30,772 bases of DNA from a virus. Every line of letters begins with the position of its first letter. Within the stretch, counting starts at the first letter, position 1. Both the position numbers and the translations under genes were made by a program. Below, one piece after another: positions 824-30,656 of this stretch. The stretch covers positions 1-30,772 of IMG/VR virus record IMGVR_UViG_3300033273_000016; one strand, written 5' to 3'. The notes below the pieces were generated by a model. The model did not search any database and was not told where the DNA came from. It saw only the letters and a program-made list of their open reading frames with translations.

Positions 824-2447
824 TGTTAGAATAAATACTAGGAGTCCATATTACATTGAGGCAAACCCTACAGCACCAGACCCAGTAGAAATACCAGACC
901 CAATAGAGGAGAATACTCCTCCTACAGTTACAATTACAGCTAGTAATGAAAACCCCTTCGTAAACGAAACAGTTACTTTGACTGCGGTAGCAACAGATAG
1001 TGATGGCACTATAACTAACTACCTATGGGGAGGTACTACCACTCCACAAACTACAGTTTCTATAGATGTAACAAGTTCTACTGTTCAATCTAAAATATTT
1101 TATGTTGTAGTAACAGATGACGATGGAGATACTGCAAACGCTCAAATTACTATTAATTGGCAAGAAATACCTGAGCAAATAATAAATACTGATATAGATG
1201 TCGAATGTGGTGATATTATAAATGAAGGGTCGTTTTCTGGAACTAAAACCTACAATCTAGTTGGAGTGGGTAATAAGGTTGGTGATGTAGAGATTGAATT
1301 TTTAGGGGGCGGAGGAAATCAAAATCACCCTGTAGTATTTGACCTTAGTTGGAATGGTGCTACAGTAACTAGTGGATATATTGGAGACTCTAATTCGGTT
1401 GATGGAACACTACAATACACAGACAATACAGGAGACCCTACAACAAAGGGAGAACCTACAACATTAACAATAAATAAATCTGCTGCCAGTCCATCTGAAG
1501 TTGTTTTAACGGCTAGACCTTTTGAAACAAATGATAGTTATAGTTTTAGACTTAATTGCCCACAAGTAGATATTGAACAAACATTCTATTACACCTTGAC
1601 TGGTACTTGTACTAGTGGGACTACAGAATTTACCTACACAGATGTAAATGGAGTAACACAAACAGTTGAACTAGAAAACGGAGAAGTAGAGTTAGTATCA
1701 GCTCAAGAAGATACAGTTTCATTAGCTGTATGTACTGGTATAACTGAAAAAGGTGGAGAAAGTTTTGAACTAGGAACTCCAACACTAGAATTAAATGACA
1801 AGGTAGAAATAAATATAATATTTGATGATTCTGGTTCAATGAATTCTACTCTAGAGCAATTAGAGAGAATGACCGAAGGAACGCTAAAAAATGAATTAAT
1901 ATCAGCATATAATGATGATTCTTCAGAATATTCTAAAAGAGTTACTGTATTGAATGCTTCTCAGGTATTAAGAGATTATGGGGGATTTGAATCAGCACCT
2001 TTTATTAGTGCAAGTGATATGGAGAGATATTTAAGAACATTAACTTTGTTAGAAAAGAGAAATACAGACTCAACCAAAGTTGTTAACATATTCTTCTTAG
2101 ATGAAGTTCTTGGCGCTTATAAAACTGGTTCTGGTGTTGGATATTCTGCGGCAAATCAAAACTATATAGATGACTTAGCTTCATATAGAAGTTTCTTAGA
2201 TACAGTATCGTATGGCACAAATCTTTCTGTACTGGCAAAAGTTGATTTTGAAAATGCAGATGGAAATGCTTTCATATCTAATATATACAACGGAACAAAT
2301 GGATTTGAAGGAAGCAAAGGTCTTTCAGACAGGTCAGAGGCAAAAATAATAACTAGTGTTCAGGATGGTAATGACTATTCTAGTAATCCAACATATTATT
2401 CAGATATAGTATTACAAGCACTAAGAGAATTTGGTTATAATATATAA
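816..2447 (+). CDS. Virion protein with PKD-like and von Willebrand A-like domains
   Basis: This 543-residue protein appears modular. Residues 35-115 form a PKD or Ig-like domain (PPTVTITA, then TDSDGTITNYLW and VVVTDDDGD). Residues 120-250 form a second beta-rich region. From about 333 there is a von Willebrand A-like domain with a MIDAS-type DxSxS motif (D337, S339, S341 in IIFDDSGSMN), followed by alternating helices and strands. There is no signal peptide, as expected for a virion component. It lies between the neck gene and the large tail proteins, so tail tip or tail decoration is likely. The MIDAS metal would suggest metal-dependent binding to a partner or surface, which is inference. 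Confidence 0.6.
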   Translation: MSDVRINTRSPYYIEANPTAPDPVEIPDPIEENTPPTVTITASNENPFVNETVTLTAVATDSDGTITNYLWGGTTTPQTTVSIDVTSSTVQSKIFYVVVTDDDGDTANAQITINWQEIPEQIINTDIDVECGDIINEGSFSGTKTYNLVGVGNKVGDVEIEFLGGGGNQNHPVVFDLSWNGATVTSGYIGDSNSVDGTLQYTDNTGDPTTKGEPTTLTINKSAASPSEVVLTARPFETNDSYSFRLNCPQVDIEQTFYYTLTGTCTSGTTEFTYTDVNGVTQTVELENGEVELVSAQEDTVSLAVCTGITEKGGESFELGTPTLELNDKVEINIIFDDSGSMNSTLEQLERMTEGTLKNELISAYNDDSSEYSKRVTVLNASQVLRDYGGFESAPFISASDMERYLRTLTLLEKRNTDSTKVVNIFFLDEVLGAYKTGSGVGYSAANQNYIDDLASYRSFLDTVSYGTNLSVLAKVDFENADGNAFISNIYNGTNGFEGSKGLSDRSEAKIITSVQDGNDYSSNPTYYSDIVLQALREFGYNI

Positions 2448-2449
2448 TT

Positions 2450-3529
2450 ATGGCAACACTATCATCAGCAAAATTAGAACTTTGGATATATAGCGGTCAG
2501 ATATTAAGTTATTCTGGAAATCCTCAATATACTATAACCAAAACAAAATTACCAAATGAAGATACTATATTATTCGAAATATCTGAGTTGATAAAAGATT
2601 ATGTAGAAATATCTTTTGATGGAGATTATGGAGCGGCAAATTTATCTTCTTGGGCTTCTTGGAGAATAACAAATACATTTGATGACAATTCAACAACTAT
2701 AAATCAAGGCACTAGACTTGTAACTCACGGATATGGTTACTTCGAGGATGAAATAAATCCACAACTTACTTCACCTTTACAACAATCTAATAACTGTATT
2801 TATTGGAAGAAAGATGAGAAGGTTAGAGTGCCTCTTTATAAGGAAAATGAATTATATAGTGTAGAATTCTTTGAAGGGACTGTGTCTTTGAGAACTCAAA
2901 CATTTGGCAAAACAGTTAAAGATTTAACTGCTGATACAACAGATTATACAGCAGACACAACTGGAATTAGGGCAGATGCTACAAGTATAATGGGTAGCAC
3001 ACCAACAAGTATTACTTCAGGAGTGAATGCTCCTTTAGGGACTGATAAGGTAATAATAACAACTGAAGATAATAAGACTATTACGTTAACTGTAACATAT
3101 ATAGACGAATGTAAAAATACACCTTACAAAATTACATTCCTGAATAAGTTCGGTTCATTACAAGATATATGGTTTTTTGGTAGAAGAAAGGAAAATGCCA
3201 ATGTAACTAGAGACCAATATAAAATAAATACTATTCAGGCAACAGCCACAAGTAAGTTATACCCCACATATTCTCCTACTGACAAAACATTTAATGTTGA
3301 ATCCAAGAAATCACTTACATTGAATACTGGGTTTATTTGCCAAGATTACAATGAGGTAGTACAACAGATGATGCAATCTGAATACGTTTGGATTCATGAA
3401 AACAATAAAGTATTCCCAGTTACACCAACAGATAATGATATAACCTATAAAGACGAGCGATACGATAAATTGTTAAACTTCACAGTTAAGTTTGAATATG
3501 CTTATAGTGAGATAAACAATGTTAGATAA
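2450..3529 (+). CDS. Tail structural protein of a Bacteroidota-phage type
   Basis: The 359-residue protein starts two bases after the previous stop and overlaps the next gene by one base (TAATG). It is beta-rich and contains a YKITFLNKFGSLQDIWFFGR segment that I associate with a structural protein of Bacteroidota phages. Around residues 159-178 there is a short threonine- and aspartate-rich repeat (TADTTDYTADTTGIRADAT) that looks inserted between two globular halves and recurs in the protein at 15047. Position suggests a distal tail or baseplate role. No enzymatic motif is visible. Confidence 0.5.
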   Translation: MATLSSAKLELWIYSGQILSYSGNPQYTITKTKLPNEDTILFEISELIKDYVEISFDGDYGAANLSSWASWRITNTFDDNSTTINQGTRLVTHGYGYFEDEINPQLTSPLQQSNNCIYWKKDEKVRVPLYKENELYSVEFFEGTVSLRTQTFGKTVKDLTADTTDYTADTTGIRADATSIMGSTPTSITSGVNAPLGTDKVIITTEDNKTITLTVTYIDECKNTPYKITFLNKFGSLQDIWFFGRRKENANVTRDQYKINTIQATATSKLYPTYSPTDKTFNVESKKSLTLNTGFICQDYNEVVQQMMQSEYVWIHENNKVFPVTPTDNDITYKDERYDKLLNFTVKFEYAYSEINNVR

Positions 3530-5883
3530 TGCAGAGACTCCAGTTATATATAGAAGAGACAGAAAATGTCTATACTCTTGTAGACTTATTTGATAACGAA
3601 AATGTACAACTTACCTCTACAATTCAAGATATAAGAGATATAAGTAAAGTTTTTACTGATTATTCCCAGACATTTGTAGTTCCAGCATCTGAAACAAACA
3701 ATAAAATATTTCGCCACTTCTACAACTATTATATAACAGGTGGTGCGTATGACGCTAGAAAGAAAAAGAAAGCTAGGTTAGAAATAAACTATCTTCCATT
3801 TCGTAAAGGAAAAATATTCTTGAATAGCGTTAAGATGAAAAACAATAAGCCTTATGCGTATGAGCTTATATTTTATGGGGAAACTGTATCGTTAAAAGAT
3901 TTGCTAGGAGACGATGAGCTTACTGATTTGGCAATAAATAGAGATACAAAAGAATCTCAATATTTATCAAACTACAACCATGAATACAATGAGACTAATG
4001 TTAAAAGTGGGCTTACAAATGGGATTGATTTTCTTATAGATGGTGTAGTTCAGGAAGAGGCAATTATATATCCTCTTATAACTTCCAAGAAAAGATTGTA
4101 TTTTCATTCTGCAACACCATCTTTTAATGCGGATGGTAATATATATCACGATGAATCATTAACCCCAGATGGAGACCCAGATAGAGGATTAAAGTTTACA
4201 GACCTTAAACCTGCAATTAAGGTAATCCATATCATCGAGGCAATAGAAAGTGTTTACAATATATCTTTTACCAGAGACTTCTTTACGGCAGACCTAGAAG
4301 AAGGTACACCCAAGAACCCTGCATTCTACAATTTATATATGTGGGTAAATAGTAAGAGGGGTGAATTTAATGATTTAGATGACGATGAAGAATACTTGTT
4401 CTCATATACTTTAACTGGGTATAATGAAACTTATGGGGGACAGGTTGTTTACCCACAAGAAATAACTATAACTGGTTCTAATATTGAATTAGCTATGGAG
4501 AGAGCTGGTGCTTTTCCAGTTACTCAACCTAAGTCAAGATACAAGTTTAATTTAGACATTGTAGTTTCTGACCAAAACATTGATTATGATGTTATATTAA
4601 GAAATAAAACAACTGGAGCTGAAGATAAAAAAAGTGGCTTAGGAGATGATAGTTTTAGCTGGGAAATAATAGAAGTTGATTTTACAAATACAGATGATAA
4701 TTTTATAACATATAATTATGAAATAGAGGTAAAGTCTAAGGAGGTTTTAACAGTAGTTTCTGCTGATGTAAATATACAAGATAGTTTTAATTACTTCCCT
4801 TTCGATGATAATTATTATGATACGTCTACAAATGAATTAACAGAAGCCCATCTATTGATGGAAGATAGGTTGCCCAAAATGAAGGTGATTGATTTCTTAA
4901 CAGGACTATTTAAGATGTTTAATTTAACAGCTTATTATATAGATGACCCAGCAGATGCTAATGATGGGAAGATATATGTTGATACTTTAGATAATTATTA
5001 TGCTGATGCTGTAAACAATAAATTAGGGGGTCTTATAGATTTAGATAAATATTTAGATGTTAGCTCTCATACTGTAGATGCAACTTTGCCATTTACTGAT
5101 ATTGAATTTAAGTATCAAGAAACAAATACAGTATTGATGGAGAATCACTTTGAACAATTCAATGAGGTGTTTGGAGATGCTGAATTTAACGTGAGAAGGG
5201 CTTTTCCTAATAAAATAGATAGAGGCAAAAAATATGAGATTAAGTTACCTTTTTCCCATCTTAAATATGAAAGATTATTAGACCTCAATACTAATTCAAC
5301 AGCCCCTAGTAGAGAAACTGATATACAATGGGGATATTGTGCTGGAGGAGATTTTACGGCAAATACAAGCGTTACCCCTAATACTGGTGATTATGATACG
5401 ATGCTAATAAGACCATTGTTGTTTTATGGGATAAATGTTACTGGCTTACCTGCCGCTAGTCCATCAAATGGCAATAGGAGTGGTAAAATAAACTGGATTT
5501 CTACATCACCTCCAACAGGACTTACAAGTTATTGGAGACCTTCCAATAGTAATGATGAGGGAACAGCTTCAGTAGCTCCAACTTATTCTTTAAACTTCGA
5601 TAATGAATTTGATGAATGGCAAAGAATAGATTACGGAGATGACAGCAATTCTCTGTATAGTGTGTTTTATAAAAGTTATGTGGAAAGTGTATTTAATGTG
5701 GCAAAAAGAATGTTTAAAGTTACAGCATACTTACCTCCAAATATTCTTGTAAACTACAAATTAAATGACCAGATTAAGATACAAGATAAGATATTTCGGA
5801 TTAATTCAATAAGTACTAATTTGATGACAGGCAAATCTGAATTAGAATTGCTAAACATCTTTGAAGGAGAAATAGTAGAATGA
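3529..5883 (+). CDS. Large tail / baseplate protein
   Basis: At 784 residues this is the largest protein here. The N-terminus (LQLYIEETENVYTLVDLFDN, then VFTDYSQTFVVPASETNNKIFRHFYN) is a recognisable start of a large tail protein family in Bacteroidota phages. The rest is mostly beta-rich, with a C-terminal ILVNYKLNDQIKIQDKIFRI stretch like the end of a baseplate hub or tail-associated protein. I see no lysozyme or peptidase motif. It lies between another tail protein and the tape measure gene, so it is probably part of the distal tail or hub. Confidence 0.55.
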   Translation: MQRLQLYIEETENVYTLVDLFDNENVQLTSTIQDIRDISKVFTDYSQTFVVPASETNNKIFRHFYNYYITGGAYDARKKKKARLEINYLPFRKGKIFLNSVKMKNNKPYAYELIFYGETVSLKDLLGDDELTDLAINRDTKESQYLSNYNHEYNETNVKSGLTNGIDFLIDGVVQEEAIIYPLITSKKRLYFHSATPSFNADGNIYHDESLTPDGDPDRGLKFTDLKPAIKVIHIIEAIESVYNISFTRDFFTADLEEGTPKNPAFYNLYMWVNSKRGEFNDLDDDEEYLFSYTLTGYNETYGGQVVYPQEITITGSNIELAMERAGAFPVTQPKSRYKFNLDIVVSDQNIDYDVILRNKTTGAEDKKSGLGDDSFSWEIIEVDFTNTDDNFITYNYEIEVKSKEVLTVVSADVNIQDSFNYFPFDDNYYDTSTNELTEAHLLMEDRLPKMKVIDFLTGLFKMFNLTAYYIDDPADANDGKIYVDTLDNYYADAVNNKLGGLIDLDKYLDVSSHTVDATLPFTDIEFKYQETNTVLMENHFEQFNEVFGDAEFNVRRAFPNKIDRGKKYEIKLPFSHLKYERLLDLNTNSTAPSRETDIQWGYCAGGDFTANTSVTPNTGDYDTMLIRPLLFYGINVTGLPAASPSNGNRSGKINWISTSPPTGLTSYWRPSNSNDEGTASVAPTYSLNFDNEFDEWQRIDYGDDSNSLYSVFYKSYVESVFNVAKRMFKVTAYLPPNILVNYKLNDQIKIQDKIFRINSISTNLMTGKSELELLNIFEGEIVE

Positions 5884-19817: not shown

Positions 19818-19848
19818 TTTGTCAGTTGGAAAACATTTTATATATTTG
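19818..19848 (+). promoter_or_regulatory. Promoter of the recombination operon, leaderless arrangement
   Basis: TTTG at 19818-19821 and TATATTTG at 19841-19848 are separated by 19 nt, matching the Bacteroidota consensus. The predicted start is about 19852, within a base or two of the ATG at 19853, so the mRNA would have almost no leader. Confidence 0.75.
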
Positions 19849-19852
19849 ACTT

Positions 19853-20395
19853 ATGAAAACAATCAATGATAAACTGGTGGATATTCAGGGGAGGCTGAAA
19901 GCACCGAAAAATCAAAGGAATAGTTTCGGTAATTACAACTATAGAAGTTGTGAGGATATATTAGAAGCTATTAAGCCATTACTTACAGAACATAAACTAG
20001 TAGTAAATTTGACTGATGAGGTTATGGAATTAGGAGGATTACTATTTGTTCAGGCAACTGCTGTAATTAGTGATGGGGAGAAGTCTATTGCTGTTAAGGC
20101 ACAGGCTGGAATAAACCCTAATAAGAAGGGTATGGATATAGCACAATCTTTTGGAGCATCTAGTAGTTATGCTAGGAAGTATGCTTTAAATGGGTTGTTC
20201 CTTATTGACGATACTAAGGATGCCGATGCTACGAATGACCATAAAGGTGAAAGTAATAATAAAGCGTGGTTAAACAAGGGTACTCCCCAGTTTACTAACG
20301 CTAAGAAGGCAGTCCAGAGTGGACAGTATACTATTCAAGACATTAAGTCTAAGTATAATGTGAGTAACGAAGTAGTTGAATTACTACAAAACTAA
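19853..20395 (+). CDS. ERF-family single-strand annealing protein
   Basis: The 180-residue protein has the ERF pattern: FGNYNYRSCEDILEAIKPLL near residues 25-44, then GLLFVQATAVISDGEKSI strands, and the hallmark GASSSYARKYALNGLFLIDDTKDAD at about 101-125. ERF proteins coat single-stranded DNA and anneal homologous strands in phage recombination. It heads an operon whose next gene is SSB-like, with a RecB-like nuclease downstream. The C-terminal 40 residues look like a small helical domain. The start ATG sits at the predicted transcription start. Confidence 0.85.
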   Translation: MKTINDKLVDIQGRLKAPKNQRNSFGNYNYRSCEDILEAIKPLLTEHKLVVNLTDEVMELGGLLFVQATAVISDGEKSIAVKAQAGINPNKKGMDIAQSFGASSSYARKYALNGLFLIDDTKDADATNDHKGESNNKAWLNKGTPQFTNAKKAVQSGQYTIQDIKSKYNVSNEVVELLQN

Positions 20396-20419: not shown

Positions 20420-20698
20420 ATGAGTAACGAGAAAAAAAGAGAGTATGTTGGAAAAGGTGTTAAGGCTGGTCAGTTTGACCTAACTAACATCTCAGTTTGT
20501 ATTGATGCCTGTGAACCCCATATTTTTGAGTACAATGGGAAAAGGTATGTTAAGTTGACTGTTGGAGGTCTTAGAGAACCAGACCAATATGGGAAAACCC
20601 ATAGCGTTTGGATTAATGACTATAAGCCAAATGAAAACAATAGCAACAACGCTCCTAAACAAGCTGTAGCTGATAGAGGCAATGATTTGCCGTTTTAA
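20420..20698 (+). CDS. SSB-like protein with DLPF tail
   Basis: Start ATG 20420 is chosen over the in-frame TTG at 20396 because the conserved part begins with MSNEKKREYVGKG. The 92-residue protein has a beta-rich body (FDLTNISVCIDACEPHIF, KRYVKLTVGGLREPDQYG) and a flexible Asn-rich linker (69-80) ending in NDLPF. The acidic/hydrophobic terminal tip is like that of bacterial SSB, which recruits partners. It follows ERF, so it probably binds single-stranded DNA. It is smaller than a typical SSB, so the fold needs confirmation. Confidence 0.6.
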   Translation: MSNEKKREYVGKGVKAGQFDLTNISVCIDACEPHIFEYNGKRYVKLTVGGLREPDQYGKTHSVWINDYKPNENNSNNAPKQAVADRGNDLPF

Positions 20699-20706
20699 TT
20701 CTAATC

Positions 20707-20742
20707 GGAGGCGGAGATTATATCAAAGCCTCCTTTTTTTTT
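20707..20742 (+). terminator. Intrinsic terminator after the SSB-like gene
   Basis: GGAGGC at 20707-20712 pairs with GCCTCC at 20728-20733, a 6-bp GC-rich stem with a 15-nt loop, followed by T residues to 20742. Confidence 0.8.
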
Positions 20743-20761: not shown

Positions 20762-21067
20762 ATGGGACAGTTTATAACAATAAATTTTAAGAAGATGGAA
20801 GATTACGACTTGAATAACAATGAAAGTATCGTGCTAGAGTATATTGATTCATTATGTAAAAATGGTACTAAGGAATACTGTTTTGCCAGTAACAAAACAA
20901 TGTCAGAAACCACAAAGATTAGCGAGAGAACACTCTATAGAATATTATCAAAATTAGAAACCAAAGGTCTTATAACAAGAAAGACTAAATCTATCGGCAA
21001 ACAAGGGAAAGAAAGAAGGATTTTAAGTAACCTTCCAAGTGCCAATCTGGCAGATATATATAGATAG
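20762..21067 (+). CDS. Winged-helix DNA-binding protein, possible replication initiator
   Basis: The 101-residue product has a winged helix-turn-helix: helix (NNESIVLEYIDSLC), then NKTMSETTKISERTLYRILSKLETKGLI with the recognition helix near residues 55-68, and a basic wing (RKTKSIGKQGKERR). Proteins like this are found as phage replication initiators or helicase loaders (O/DnaD N-terminal type) or as regulators. Three iterons begin in its last codons and run toward the primase-helicase gene, which supports an origin-binding role. That link is inferred. Confidence 0.6.
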   Translation: MGQFITINFKKMEDYDLNNNESIVLEYIDSLCKNGTKEYCFASNKTMSETTKISERTLYRILSKLETKGLITRKTKSIGKQGKERRILSNLPSANLADIYR

Positions 21068-21124
21068 TACTAACTATGTTATATAGATAGTACTAAGTAT
21101 ATAAATAATATAATACTAAGTATA
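21057..21124 (+). repeat. Three iterons with 23-bp period, candidate origin
   Basis: TATATAGATAGTACTAAcTAT at 21057-21077 and TATATAGATAGTACTAAgTAT at 21080-21100 differ at one base. A third, partly matching unit starts at 21103 and shares TACTAAGTATA (21091 and 21114). The starts are 23 bp apart each time. The first two contain the palindrome TAGTACTA. Surroundings are extremely AT-rich. Such spacing fits binding sites of the adjacent winged-helix protein or a replication origin. Confidence 0.6.
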
Positions 21125-21132
21125 ATACAAGG

Positions 21133-22905
21133 ATGATACAAGAATTTACTAATCTAGGGATTCAGCTCAGGGGTAATTCACCTCAACAGAAAACTAAGTG
21201 TCCAAAATGTTCTTTAGATAGAAAGAACAAGTTAGACACACCACTATCCGTAAATTTAAAGGATGGGGTTTTTAAGTGCCACCATTGTAATTGGCAAGGA
21301 AGAGTTGGTTCACTAAATAACAATAATTATATGGAGAACAAAGTATATTCATTGCCTAGTGAGAATGTATTACAACCGCTTTCTGGTAAAGGCAAAGAAT
21401 TCTTAAATTCAAGGGGAATAACAGATGATATAATCCAATCTAACAATATCAAAAGCTCAAGCGATGGTAGTAAGATAGTTTTCCCATACTATAGAGAAGG
21501 CAAACTAATTAACTATAAAACTAGGGGTATAGATGGCAAACATTTTACTCAGGCAAAAGATGCTGAAGCTATTGTATATAACTACGATAGTCTAGTTGGC
21601 AGTAAAGATATTGTTATAAGTGAGGGCGAGATAGATTCACTAAGCTGGGCAGTAGCTGGAGTCAGAACCCATACTTCTGTTAATATGGGGGCTCCAAACG
21701 TACAAGATAAGAATATAGATAAGAAACTACAATGTATAGATAACTGTTATAATGTGTTTGAAGATGCCAAAACAATATATATTTCTGTAGATAATGATGA
21801 CAATGGAAGATACCTACAAAAGGAGCTTATTAGACGTATTGGAGTAGAAAAGTGTAAAATAGTCGATTTAAGCCCTTTTAAAGATGCAAATGAGGTATTA
21901 GTCCACGAAGGCGTAGAAAGTCTCGTAGAGAGGCTTAAAAACGCTTTACAGCCTAAAATAGAAGGTGTCTTTGAAGTAAATGATATTAGAGACAGTTTAA
22001 TAGATGGGTTTTATAATGGAGTTGAACGAGGCACAACTACTTATATCCCTAGTATTGACAATGCTTGGACTTGGAGAATGGGGGAAGTTAATGTTTGGAC
22101 TGGGTATCAGAACGAGGGGAAGTCTTTGTTCCTGAATCAACTTTGCTGTTTGAAATCGGCAATGGAAGGATGGAAGTTTGCATTTTTTACCCCAGAGAAT
22201 ATGCCGATGAATGATTTCTTTAATGATATTGCTGAGATGTATATTGGTAAAAGTAGCGACCCCCACCATAAAAGTTCCCAGATGGCAATAGAGGAATATA
22301 GAGAAGCCCTTGATTTTATACAAGACCATTTCTATGTTATATATCCTAATAAGAATTTTCTGCTGGAAACTGTATTGAATAAGGCTAAACTACTTGTAAG
22401 GCAGAAAGGTATCCGTAGTTTGATAATAGACCCCTATAATACTATCCAACATAAAATGAGGGTGGGAGAAAGGGAGGATTTATATATCAGTAGGTTTATG
22501 AGTGAATTGAAAAGGTTTGCAGTTGATAACGATGTGGCAATCCATTTAGTAGCCCATCAAATAACCCCTCGTAAAGGAGACGATGGTAGGTATCCAAAGC
22601 CTGATATAAATTCAATAAAAGGTGGTGGTACATTTGCCGACAAGGCTGATAATGTAATGTTTGTTTGGAGACCGAATAGGGCTATCGATTTTTCTGATAA
22701 ATTTGTTACCTTTGGTTCACAGAAGATTAAGAAACAGAAATTAGTCGGTATCCCACAAGAGGTTGAACTCATCGAATTTAACATAAAGGAGCAACGTTAT
22801 TACTTTAATAACGAAACACCTTTTACTAAAGTAGATGAAAAAAGAAGAAAAGAAAGAAGTAGCCCTATCATTACCTCTGTTTATAAAAAACAGAAACAAT
22901 CGTAG
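21133..22905 (+). CDS. Bifunctional primase-helicase (T7 gp4-like)
   Basis: The 590-residue protein has three parts. Residues 20-55 form a zinc ribbon with C23, C26, C49 and C52. Residues 110-265 form a TOPRIM primase region with SEGEIDSL (E164) and the D220/D222 pair. Residues 310-570 form a DnaB/RecA-like helicase with Walker A GYQNEGKS (324-331), Walker B IIDPYN (D433) and a GGGTFADKADNVM region. It should unwind the fork and make primers. It follows the iterons, so it starts the replication operon. It overlaps the RusA-like start by 71 bp. Confidence 0.9.
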   Translation: MIQEFTNLGIQLRGNSPQQKTKCPKCSLDRKNKLDTPLSVNLKDGVFKCHHCNWQGRVGSLNNNNYMENKVYSLPSENVLQPLSGKGKEFLNSRGITDDIIQSNNIKSSSDGSKIVFPYYREGKLINYKTRGIDGKHFTQAKDAEAIVYNYDSLVGSKDIVISEGEIDSLSWAVAGVRTHTSVNMGAPNVQDKNIDKKLQCIDNCYNVFEDAKTIYISVDNDDNGRYLQKELIRRIGVEKCKIVDLSPFKDANEVLVHEGVESLVERLKNALQPKIEGVFEVNDIRDSLIDGFYNGVERGTTTYIPSIDNAWTWRMGEVNVWTGYQNEGKSLFLNQLCCLKSAMEGWKFAFFTPENMPMNDFFNDIAEMYIGKSSDPHHKSSQMAIEEYREALDFIQDHFYVIYPNKNFLLETVLNKAKLLVRQKGIRSLIIDPYNTIQHKMRVGEREDLYISRFMSELKRFAVDNDVAIHLVAHQITPRKGDDGRYPKPDINSIKGGGTFADKADNVMFVWRPNRAIDFSDKFVTFGSQKIKKQKLVGIPQEVELIEFNIKEQRYYFNNETPFTKVDEKRRKERSSPIITSVYKKQKQS

Positions 22906-23236: not shown

Positions 23237-23401
23237 ATGTATATACAATTTTTTCCTGTTTATGGGTTGATGGTTGGTTTCAATTACTGGAATACAACTA
23301 TGGATGAGGTTCAAGACCCAGATGCTGAAGAGGTAGAACATTTGTTTCAATTTATTCTTGGCATTATTGGAATATCAATCCACGTATGGAGGAGCAAGTA
23401 A
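23237..23401 (+). CDS. Small membrane-like protein, unknown
   Basis: A 54-residue ORF fills the gap between RusA and sigma-like genes and overlaps the latter by 16 bp. It has an aromatic N-terminus (MYIQFFPVYGLMVGFNYW), an acidic centre (DEVQDPDAEEVEH) and a hydrophobic C-terminus (FQFILGIIGISIHVW). Similar short phage proteins exist in my memory but without function. Confidence 0.55.
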   Translation: MYIQFFPVYGLMVGFNYWNTTMDEVQDPDAEEVEHLFQFILGIIGISIHVWRSK

Positions 23402-23934
23402 TAAAAACACTAGGTGATAAACACCAAGATTGGTTCTATATGGCTAAGTCTTTTGGAGTTAGTGATGAAGATGCCAATGAATTAGTCCAGCAAATGTACG
23501 TTAGGATATGTGGGTATGTGAAGGACGTGGGGAAGATAATGTACAATGATGATGAGGTTAATACTTACTATGTTTATGTAACGCTAAGAAATCTATATTT
23601 ATCTAACTTCCATAAGGGAAGTAGTAAAATGGTGTACTTAGATGACTTGGCAAATGATATAAGCGAGATGTATAGTACTAATATGAAGCTGGAGAATGAA
23701 AAGGAATACTTTGACAAAGTTATAGACAAAGTGGAGTCTCTTGTAGATGATTGGTATTGGTACGATAAGAAAGTATTTAATATCCATTTCTATGGGAAGA
23801 TGTCAATGAGAAAGATAGCGAGGGAAACTAAAATAAGTTTAAGTTCAATATTCAATACTTTAAGTAATGGTAAAAACAAAATCAAAGAGGGTGCAATCAA
23901 AGAGTACCAAAGATACCTCGAATCAAAAAACTAA
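23386..23934 (+). CDS. Sigma-70-like factor (phage RNA polymerase sigma)
   Basis: The 182-residue protein has sigma region 2-like helices (DEDANELVQQMYVRI, then TYYVYVTLRNLYLSNFHK, about 10-78), a linker, and a region 4-like helix-turn-helix (YDKKVFNIHFYGKMSMRKIARETKISLSSIFNTL, read in parts, about 126-160). It lacks regions 1 and 3, like ECF factors. It could redirect host RNA polymerase to phage promoters. The repeated intergenic motifs seen here are candidates for its sites, which is inference. Confidence 0.65.
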   Translation: MEEQVIKTLGDKHQDWFYMAKSFGVSDEDANELVQQMYVRICGYVKDVGKIMYNDDEVNTYYVYVTLRNLYLSNFHKGSSKMVYLDDLANDISEMYSTNMKLENEKEYFDKVIDKVESLVDDWYWYDKKVFNIHFYGKMSMRKIARETKISLSSIFNTLSNGKNKIKEGAIKEYQRYLESKN

Positions 23935-26397: not shown

Positions 26398-26563
26398 TAA
26401 AGAAGAATGTTATACTGATGTTTATACTTCTTTATGTTTAGGCATATTAGATGAAAAGGAAGTTAGGCATTTACTAGAATACTACAAAGATATAGAACAC
26501 TATGAATGTTGTCAGGGTATAGTTGAAGCATACGCTGACTTTAAGAAAAACCCAGTAAAATGA
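26387..26563 (+). CDS. Small acidic protein with CC motif
   Basis: The 58-residue ORF overlaps the exonuclease end by 11 bp and the DnaA-like gene by 4. It is acidic (DEKEVRHLLEYYKDIEHYEC) with four cysteines (C8, C17, C41, C42). Unknown. Confidence 0.5.
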   Translation: MYSSKEECYTDVYTSLCLGILDEKEVRHLLEYYKDIEHYECCQGIVEAYADFKKNPVK

Positions 26564-27099
26564 TAGAACAAATAAAAAAGAGAGAAAGATACAAGGAATT
26601 AGCCAATTCAATAGTATGTGGATATTATGGGATTGATATTGGTCAACCAACCAGAATAAGAAAATATGTAATTGCAAGGGCTATGTATTATAAAATACTA
26701 AGAGCCAATACCAATATGAGTTTTCAGGAGATTGCCAAAATATTCAATAAACACCACGCTACTGTACTCCATTCTATAAAACAGTTAGATGGTATAATGG
26801 AACAGGACTATTCGTTAAGAAGTGATTTCTTAGTTATAAATACTAAGTTTACTGATGCTATAGAAAAAATATACTCAGATAATTTAGATGAATTGCTTAC
26901 TGTAGAGGAAGAATCTGAGGAGTATTATATGTTGCTTAGTGATTTTAATGATTTGAATCAAAGACACAGAGCATTAAGAATAGCCCATAAAGAACTTATT
27001 GAGTCAAATGAGAAACTCAATGAGAAGTATAAGAAACTAAAGAATAAACACGAAGAGAGAGAATATTATTACCAGAGAAACGGATATGTATTAAAATAA
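26560..27099 (+). CDS. DnaA domain IV-like DNA-binding protein with coiled coil
   Basis: Residues 33-80 read like the DnaA C-terminal DNA-binding domain: RKYVIARAMYYKILRANTNM, then SFQEIAKIFNKHHATVLHSI, which matches the DnaA signature around the H-x-TV recognition helix. The rest is a hinge followed by a coiled coil (about 130-165). A full DnaA ATPase is absent. It could bind DnaA-box-like sites and act in phage replication or host take-over. I infer this role. It starts with ATGA overlap. Confidence 0.65.
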   Translation: MIEQIKKRERYKELANSIVCGYYGIDIGQPTRIRKYVIARAMYYKILRANTNMSFQEIAKIFNKHHATVLHSIKQLDGIMEQDYSLRSDFLVINTKFTDAIEKIYSDNLDELLTVEEESEEYYMLLSDFNDLNQRHRALRIAHKELIESNEKLNEKYKKLKNKHEEREYYYQRNGYVLK

Positions 27100-30410: not shown

Positions 30411-30504
30411 TCATTGTTGCGGTGCACCTTTATTGCCGATTGAAACTGAAATTTGCTCAGAATGTTACGAGCATTGTGAAGCAATTCAATACACTATCGA
30501 ATAA
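30394..30504 (+). CDS. Zinc-ribbon-like microprotein
   Basis: A 36-residue ORF with HCCGAPLLPIETEICSECYEHC, read in parts: C8/C9, C21, C24 and C28 plus two histidines could bind zinc. I recall such short proteins in Bacteroidota phages. It ends at the first intergenic motif copies. Confidence 0.5.
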   Translation: MEQVVSHCCGAPLLPIETEICSECYEHCEAIQYTIE

Positions 30505-30563
30505 ATTCAATAGGCATAAATTCAATACCTAAATATGAATTCAATAGGTATAAATTCAATAGG
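30483..30563 (+). repeat. Five copies of AATTCAATA(GG) with a duplicated 24-bp unit
   Basis: Motif starts are 30483, 30504, 30519, 30538 and 30553 (spacing 21, 15, 19, 15). The 24-bp units 30504-30527 and 30538-30561 differ at one base (C/T) and lie 34 bp apart. The first copy lies in the end of the microprotein gene, the rest are non-coding. The last runs directly into a terminator. Confidence 0.7.
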
Positions 30564-30591
30564 GGGGTCAGACTTGATTCCCCTTTTTTTT
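30561..30591 (+). terminator. Intrinsic terminator
   Basis: AGGGGGGTC (30561-30569) pairs with GATTCCCCT (30576-30584) with two G-T pairs and an AGACTT loop, followed by eight T. The left arm overlaps the last repeat copy, as at 12824. Confidence 0.85.
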
Positions 30592-30656
30592 GTTTTGCTA
30601 TTCTTATTTAGACTAAATATAAATTAACATTTTATCCACAATTTCATAGAAAAACA

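Follow-up and report, generated by a model that had tools for sequence, protein, structure and literature searches.

The viral record IMGVR_UViG_3300033273_000016 of IMG/VR (30,772 bp, classed as linear, referred to here in its full length as the window) carries a short array of direct repeats at the junction of a winged-helix gene and a primase-helicase gene, which raises the question of whether this array is a replication origin and which protein would recognize it. The first-pass annotation of the window read the array as the origin of an adjacent initiator gene and knew of no description for this type of phage. We found no published description either, and no paper on the origin of this phage group or on its named relative, Tenacibaculum phage JQ. 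The comparisons of sequence presented below suggest that the array is probably the replication-module copy of a two-site origin in lytic phages of marine Bacteroidota, with a solo winged-helix protein as the initiator. The gene order at the locus is ERF, SSB-like, winged helix, array, and primase-helicase (Table 1).

Table 1. Features of the repeat locus in the window.
Feature	Position	Strand	Basis or remark
Exact match to a Bacteroidota-type promoter, TTG-N19-TATATTTG	19819..19848	+	before the ERF-SSB-winged helix-primase run
ERF single-strand annealing protein	19853..20395	+	first gene of the conserved run; family matches
Small protein ending ...NDLPF	20420..20698	+	from sequence; SSB-like by tail and position, no family match
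GGAGGC...GCCTCC hairpin with T-run, terminator- or attenuator-like	20707..20742	+	by eye; loop too long for the hairpin scan
Solo winged-helix protein, 101 aa, proposed initiator (DNA-binding domain only)	20762..21067	+	Pfam HTH_36, PHROG, AlphaFold and PDB matches
Dyad TGCCAATCTGGCA (TGYC-N5-GRCA)	21040..21052	.	within the winged-helix gene, at its 3' end; sole match in the window
68-bp minimum of thermodynamic stability in the window	21054..21121	.	coincides with the repeats; candidate unwinding element
Repeat unit 1	21057..21079	+	overlaps the winged-helix stop codon
Repeat unit 2	21080..21102	+	21/23 identical to unit 1; contains TAGTACTA and TACTAAGTA
Repeat unit 3	21103..21125	+	weaker, about 16/23 against unit 2; contains ATACTAAGTAT
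Primase-helicase	21133..22905	+	zinc-finger cysteines, TOPRIM, DnaB-C-like helicase; phrog_239

All three units described in the first-pass annotation are present where it had placed them. The reported match of units 1 and 2 at 20 of 21 core bases was reproduced, with TAGTACTA common to both. When the same 91 bp were dinucleotide-shuffled 5000 times, no shuffle reached such a match at one offset (the best had 19). Unit 3 reads TAATACTA. An equally good pair at a spacing of 12-60 bp occurs at one other place in the 30.8-kb window (at 30504), and the 17-bp core has no further occurrence in the window with three or fewer mismatches. The array of the window itself escapes a best-10-mer test, in which 67 of 200 shuffles were as good; its significance rests on the tandem-pair test instead. 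The array does lie between the winged-helix and primase-helicase genes as had been proposed, but it is only partly intergenic: the winged-helix gene, with its stop codon at 21065-21067, runs 11 bases into unit 1. The description of the DNA as very AT-rich holds: the repeat tract has an AT content of 84% and the lowest stability in the window over both 50 and 68 bp, with -0.946 kcal/mol per step at 21054-21121 against a window mean of -1.219 (sd 0.066). GC skew, which had been suggested as a check, increases steadily across the window and does not turn at 21 kb; this counts neither for nor against the origin reading, and a turn would be masked because the genes are co-directional. An explanation of the tract at the RNA level was also considered and rejected, as there was no Rfam match and its folding was no better than that of shuffles (z -1.1).

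The protein encoded immediately upstream of the array matches Pfam HTH_36 (1e-8), which is present in 40 of 41 relatives' winged-helix proteins, and the PHROG replication-initiation families phrog_270 (1e-11), phrog_428 (5e-11), and the O-like phrog_678 (3e-9), these family matches reaching only the N-terminal part of each profile. Its AlphaFold model is a winged helix (pLDDT 80), and the best PDB matches of the model are the DNA-binding domains of plasmid initiators, namely 4pql (E 1.4e-4, query-normalised TM 0.62), 4pt7, and 5kbj. MarR-type proteins and DnaD come after the plasmid initiators in the fold search, and since MarR-type regulators score nearly as high, the fold alone does not say initiator. 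The same gene slot in relative L080 and in phage JQ is occupied by full-length initiators (275 or 247 aa) that match phrog_270 over most of their length, which indicates that the window group has the DNA-binding domain only. No C-terminal domain contacting a helicase or helicase loader is present in the 101-aa protein, and Pfam RepA_N (PF06970) is not among the families listed for it or for the 41 relatives. The best reading is that this protein corresponds to the DNA-binding domain of initiators of the O-like or DnaD-like kind and lacks their C-terminal domain. The initiator-domain matches and the full-length proteins in the same slot support in kind the first-pass reading of an initiator gene beside its origin.

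Relatives of the window were gathered by primase scans, giving 70 distinct winged-helix/primase junctions, and 64 of these have an AT-rich tract of 28-152 bp between the two genes (referred to as the first site), where the local AT maximum falls in most relatives. The repeat words of these tracts are palindromic and lineage-specific, and few or no copies of them occur in the rest of the loci. The word is TACTWAGTA in the window group and L100, TAACATGTTA in the L042 group, TACACTWAGTGTA in L057 and L070, TACAWTGTA in L033, and TCATAATATGA in L015, L020, and L059. Repeat counts exceed those of nearly all shuffles in the clades with long tracts, and are not above shuffles in the AT-only tracts (L012, L013, L022, and L031). 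The exact 23-bp period claimed for the array holds for units 1 and 2 in the window and in its close relatives, but unit 3 lies at 22 bp in L001 and L004, and spacings among relatives overall range from about 14 to 30 bp; a search for the same spacing did not find it to be a conserved signature. The tract is missing between the two genes in L039, L045, L052, L068, L072, and L074. Inverted AT-rich repeats are present about 2 kb upstream of the primase gene in three of these (L068 at 2896-3307, L072 at 2325-3002, and L039 at 3016-3532); in L068 and L072 they closely follow a good promoter of the Bacteroidota type. The first array may have been relocated to this upstream position.

The words vary along with the protein to some extent. 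All 10 tracts whose protein has E or Q at residue 55 of the recognition helix have at least two TAGTA half-sites, compared to 3 of 24 for D, in an exploratory comparison where the residue was picked after seeing the data and kinship is ignored. A Mantel test of word against protein gave a partial r of 0.29 given the primase, compared to 0.11 for the primase given the protein; this is modest support, the test being weak because the tract touches both genes.

A second element is found next to the array. The dyad occurs 11-46 bases before the winged-helix stop codon in 35 of the 70 junctions (a manual count that omits a distant match in L020), against a background of 0.035 per kb; second matches in the coding DNA of some genomes were not counted as sites. 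The Ala or Val codon within the dyad has a wobble C in 25 of 26 cases, although in the window GCC and GTC account for 12% and 7% of their respective codon families. The second codon after it ends in G in 25 of 26 cases through six different amino acids. In L009 and L010, a shared frame change shortens the winged-helix protein; the flanking DNA is unchanged, and so is the dyad, which is retained though out of frame. Judging from these patterns of codon usage and retention, the dyad is conserved as DNA in half of the junctions.

A dyad search of the long records led to intergenic DNA 11-13 kb downstream of the first site, upstream of a late gene (TLGQYQKY family) that is present in 20 of 40 records. 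Neither this gene nor the site is in the window, because the record ends too early. The AT-rich array upstream of the late gene (referred to as the second site), which has a dyad in most cases, carries the word of the same genome's first site. It has six TACACTTAGTGTA-type repeats in L178 (the genome of L070), TACAWTGTA in L182 (L033), ACATGTTA in L180 (L049), and TACTTAGTA in L175 (L111), while in L174 (L005, the closest long relative) it has ATACTAAGTATAATA, which is a stretch of the window's own array. In a comparison of 18 genomes, the first and second sites of one genome share 8-mers at 0.182, vs. 0.086 for sites of different genomes (0 of 10,000 permutations), with only a small excess in an AT-rich control region of the same loci (0.055 vs. 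0.044); in several AT-rich genomes, another genome's second site matches better (the own site ranks 2-11). Most likely, the system has two sites rather than one.

The presence of the second array also follows that of the protein. G040 has the winged-helix protein and TACTAAGTA arrays at both sites. A scan with the pattern of the window's word had many unrelated contigs among the matches listed, and only those beside the late gene were used. L072 has kept its second-site array without a first array, while L074 lacks the tract and shows no obvious second array. In seven records (G048-G054, 26-33 kb), the late gene is present and a profile search found no winged-helix gene; in the 250 bp upstream of their late genes, a dyad was found in none of the seven and repeats above shuffles in none. 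These phages are also more distant (late-gene identity to L005 of 45-49%), so descent and absence of the protein are not fully separated in this comparison. Taken together, the word that co-varies at an unlinked site and the absence of the second array where the protein is missing extend the initiator reading beyond the single junction where it was made, and the protein and its two sites appear, on the sequences compared, to evolve together.

Based on the array, the dyad and its conservation at the DNA level, the word common to the two sites, and the co-occurrence of the sites with the protein, we propose the following mechanism. The winged-helix protein would bind the palindromic AT-rich repeats at 21057-21125, and perhaps also the dyad, probably as a dimer; the bound protein would open the least stable stretch of the genome, where the primase-helicase encoded directly downstream would load, and host polymerase would then extend. 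As no DNA polymerase of family A or B was found in the long records tested, host replication proteins are probably used. The second array, about 12 kb downstream ahead of the late gene in relatives, carries the same word and may act as an origin as well, such that one initiator would serve two cognate origins, and both sites would change together with the protein as the word changes between lineages. The more far-reaching proposal is that a bare DNA-binding-domain initiator and the phage's own primase-helicase make up a two-origin replicon in which the recognition word has been repeatedly rewritten, the protein and both unlinked origins changing in concert; to this we give an even chance.

Alternatively, the winged-helix protein could be a transcription regulator, and the two arrays the operators of the primase-helicase and late genes, each site immediately preceding co-directional genes. 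The winged-helix fold is most frequent in regulators, the regulators MepR and SlyA are near the initiators in fold-search score, and two operators would likewise yield co-varying words. We nevertheless consider this unlikely. The promoter -7 element TANNTTTG is present in none of 64 first sites and none of 19 second sites (and in 8 of 69 in a wider, more distant set), while Bacteroidota-type promoters cluster 1.2-1.5 kb upstream, before ERF; in the window, the promoter listed in Table 1 is the nearest of its type upstream of the array. Further, the families best matched by sequence are replication initiators, full-length initiators occupy the same slot, and no DNA of the window is less stable than the array. 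One protein could, however, fill both roles, and promoters specific to the phage may exist. The window also encodes a sigma-factor-like protein (23386-23934; weak match to region 4), which may be a sigma factor of the phage and bears on the existence of such promoters.

It is less probable still that the array is an origin recognized by another protein, such as the DnaA C-terminal-domain protein encoded at 26560-27099 or a host factor, with the winged-helix gene a mere neighbor. Such a protein is indeed encoded (DnaA domain IV match, 3e-11; it has a coiled-coil-like tail and no DnaA ATPase domain was seen), and the dyad word is constant across clades, as expected of a conserved partner. However, no DnaA-box cluster is present at the array, boxes with a single mismatch are below chance in the window, second arrays are missing exactly where the winged-helix gene is missing, and the word type tracks recognition-helix residue 55 (in the post hoc comparison above, which ignores kinship). 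A host DnaA origin at the array was rejected, as it has no boxes and the only exact TTATCCACA of the window is at 30632. Of very low probability, in our view, is a non-replicative site for packaging, partition, or recombination that is carried twice. Each genome has two related sites with inverted words, and recombination between the copies is possible as the phage encodes ERF annealing and RusA-like proteins; but replication accounts better for a location next to the primase-helicase and initiator-like genes and for a tract that is prone to unwind. Packaging sites usually accompany the terminase genes, from which one of the two sites is 7 kb away.

Some other features of the window and its relatives are recorded here. 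The hairpin in Table 1 is between the SSB-like and winged-helix genes, and stem-loops of different sequence are present at the same position in L039, L045, L052, L068, and L074. Near the right end of the window, a non-coding AT-rich stretch contains AATTCAATAGG-type repeats (30483-30566; a 34-bp spaced pair and a period-15 array) and the sole exact DnaA box of the window (30632-30640), the latter 50 bp before a TATATTTG promoter element. A motif similar to AATTCAATAGG is found near the second site in L174 (about 1060-1120), L187, and L039.

As for the host, the nearest named primase is that of phage JQ (48%), and no near-identical named phage was found. The JQ-like primase and the Bacteroidota-type promoters before ERF indicate that the host is probably a marine flavobacterium. 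The GTDB genome collection contained no prophage relatives, which suggests a lytic life style. If the proposed origin pair is real, it would map two origins and name an initiator for a common group of uncultured marine Bacteroidota phages, and would offer an example of initiation by a bare DNA-binding domain and a natural series of dozens of protein/site pairs with different words. The specificity code of a small winged-helix initiator would then be directly testable, as would the joint change of two unlinked origins, and the protein/site pairs could serve as plasmid origins for flavobacterial genetics.

The nearest named phages with the second-site late gene (32-33%) are the Nonlabens phages P12024S and P12024L (Inhavirus), which are of similar size and have an ERF-containing module. 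They differ in having another primase, a late gene directly after the terminase gene, and no solo winged-helix gene annotated near the primase.

Among better-known replicons, RepA_N initiators (those of pSK41 and pTZ2162, and the satellite PLE RepA) have a winged-helix domain and semi-palindromic direct repeats in an AT-rich origin (PMC7145576). The system described here resembles them in its best structural matches and in its semi-palindromic repeats in AT-rich DNA, and differs in lacking a C-terminal domain and being a phage module with its own primase-helicase. The O protein of lambda and Stx phages binds, as a dimer, iterons that adjoin an AT-rich tract and are located in its own gene or next to it (PMC7466680). 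Similarly, an O-like winged-helix domain is encoded here, with iterons and an AT-rich tract at its gene; unlike in lambda, the iterons overlap only the end of the gene, a second array is present, and the words differ between relatives. Accordingly, the system is filed neither as RepA_N, for which no match was listed, nor as a full O-type initiator, as the C-terminal domain is absent. In Bacillus phage SPP1, oriL and oriR are about 13 kb apart, one in the initiator gene and the other in the late region, each with direct repeats and an AT-rich unwinding element, and both are bound by the initiator gp38 (PMC6316719). The present system differs from SPP1 in that the initiator is a solo domain of 90-105 aa, primase and helicase are fused with no separate loader among the identified genes (a separate DnaB-type helicase and loader being the SPP1-type arrangement), the repeat word varies between lineages, and origin activity is predicted from sequence. 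As in SPP1, one array lies beside the proposed initiator gene and another, with the same word, in the late region, which is seen in the relatives that extend beyond the end of the window.
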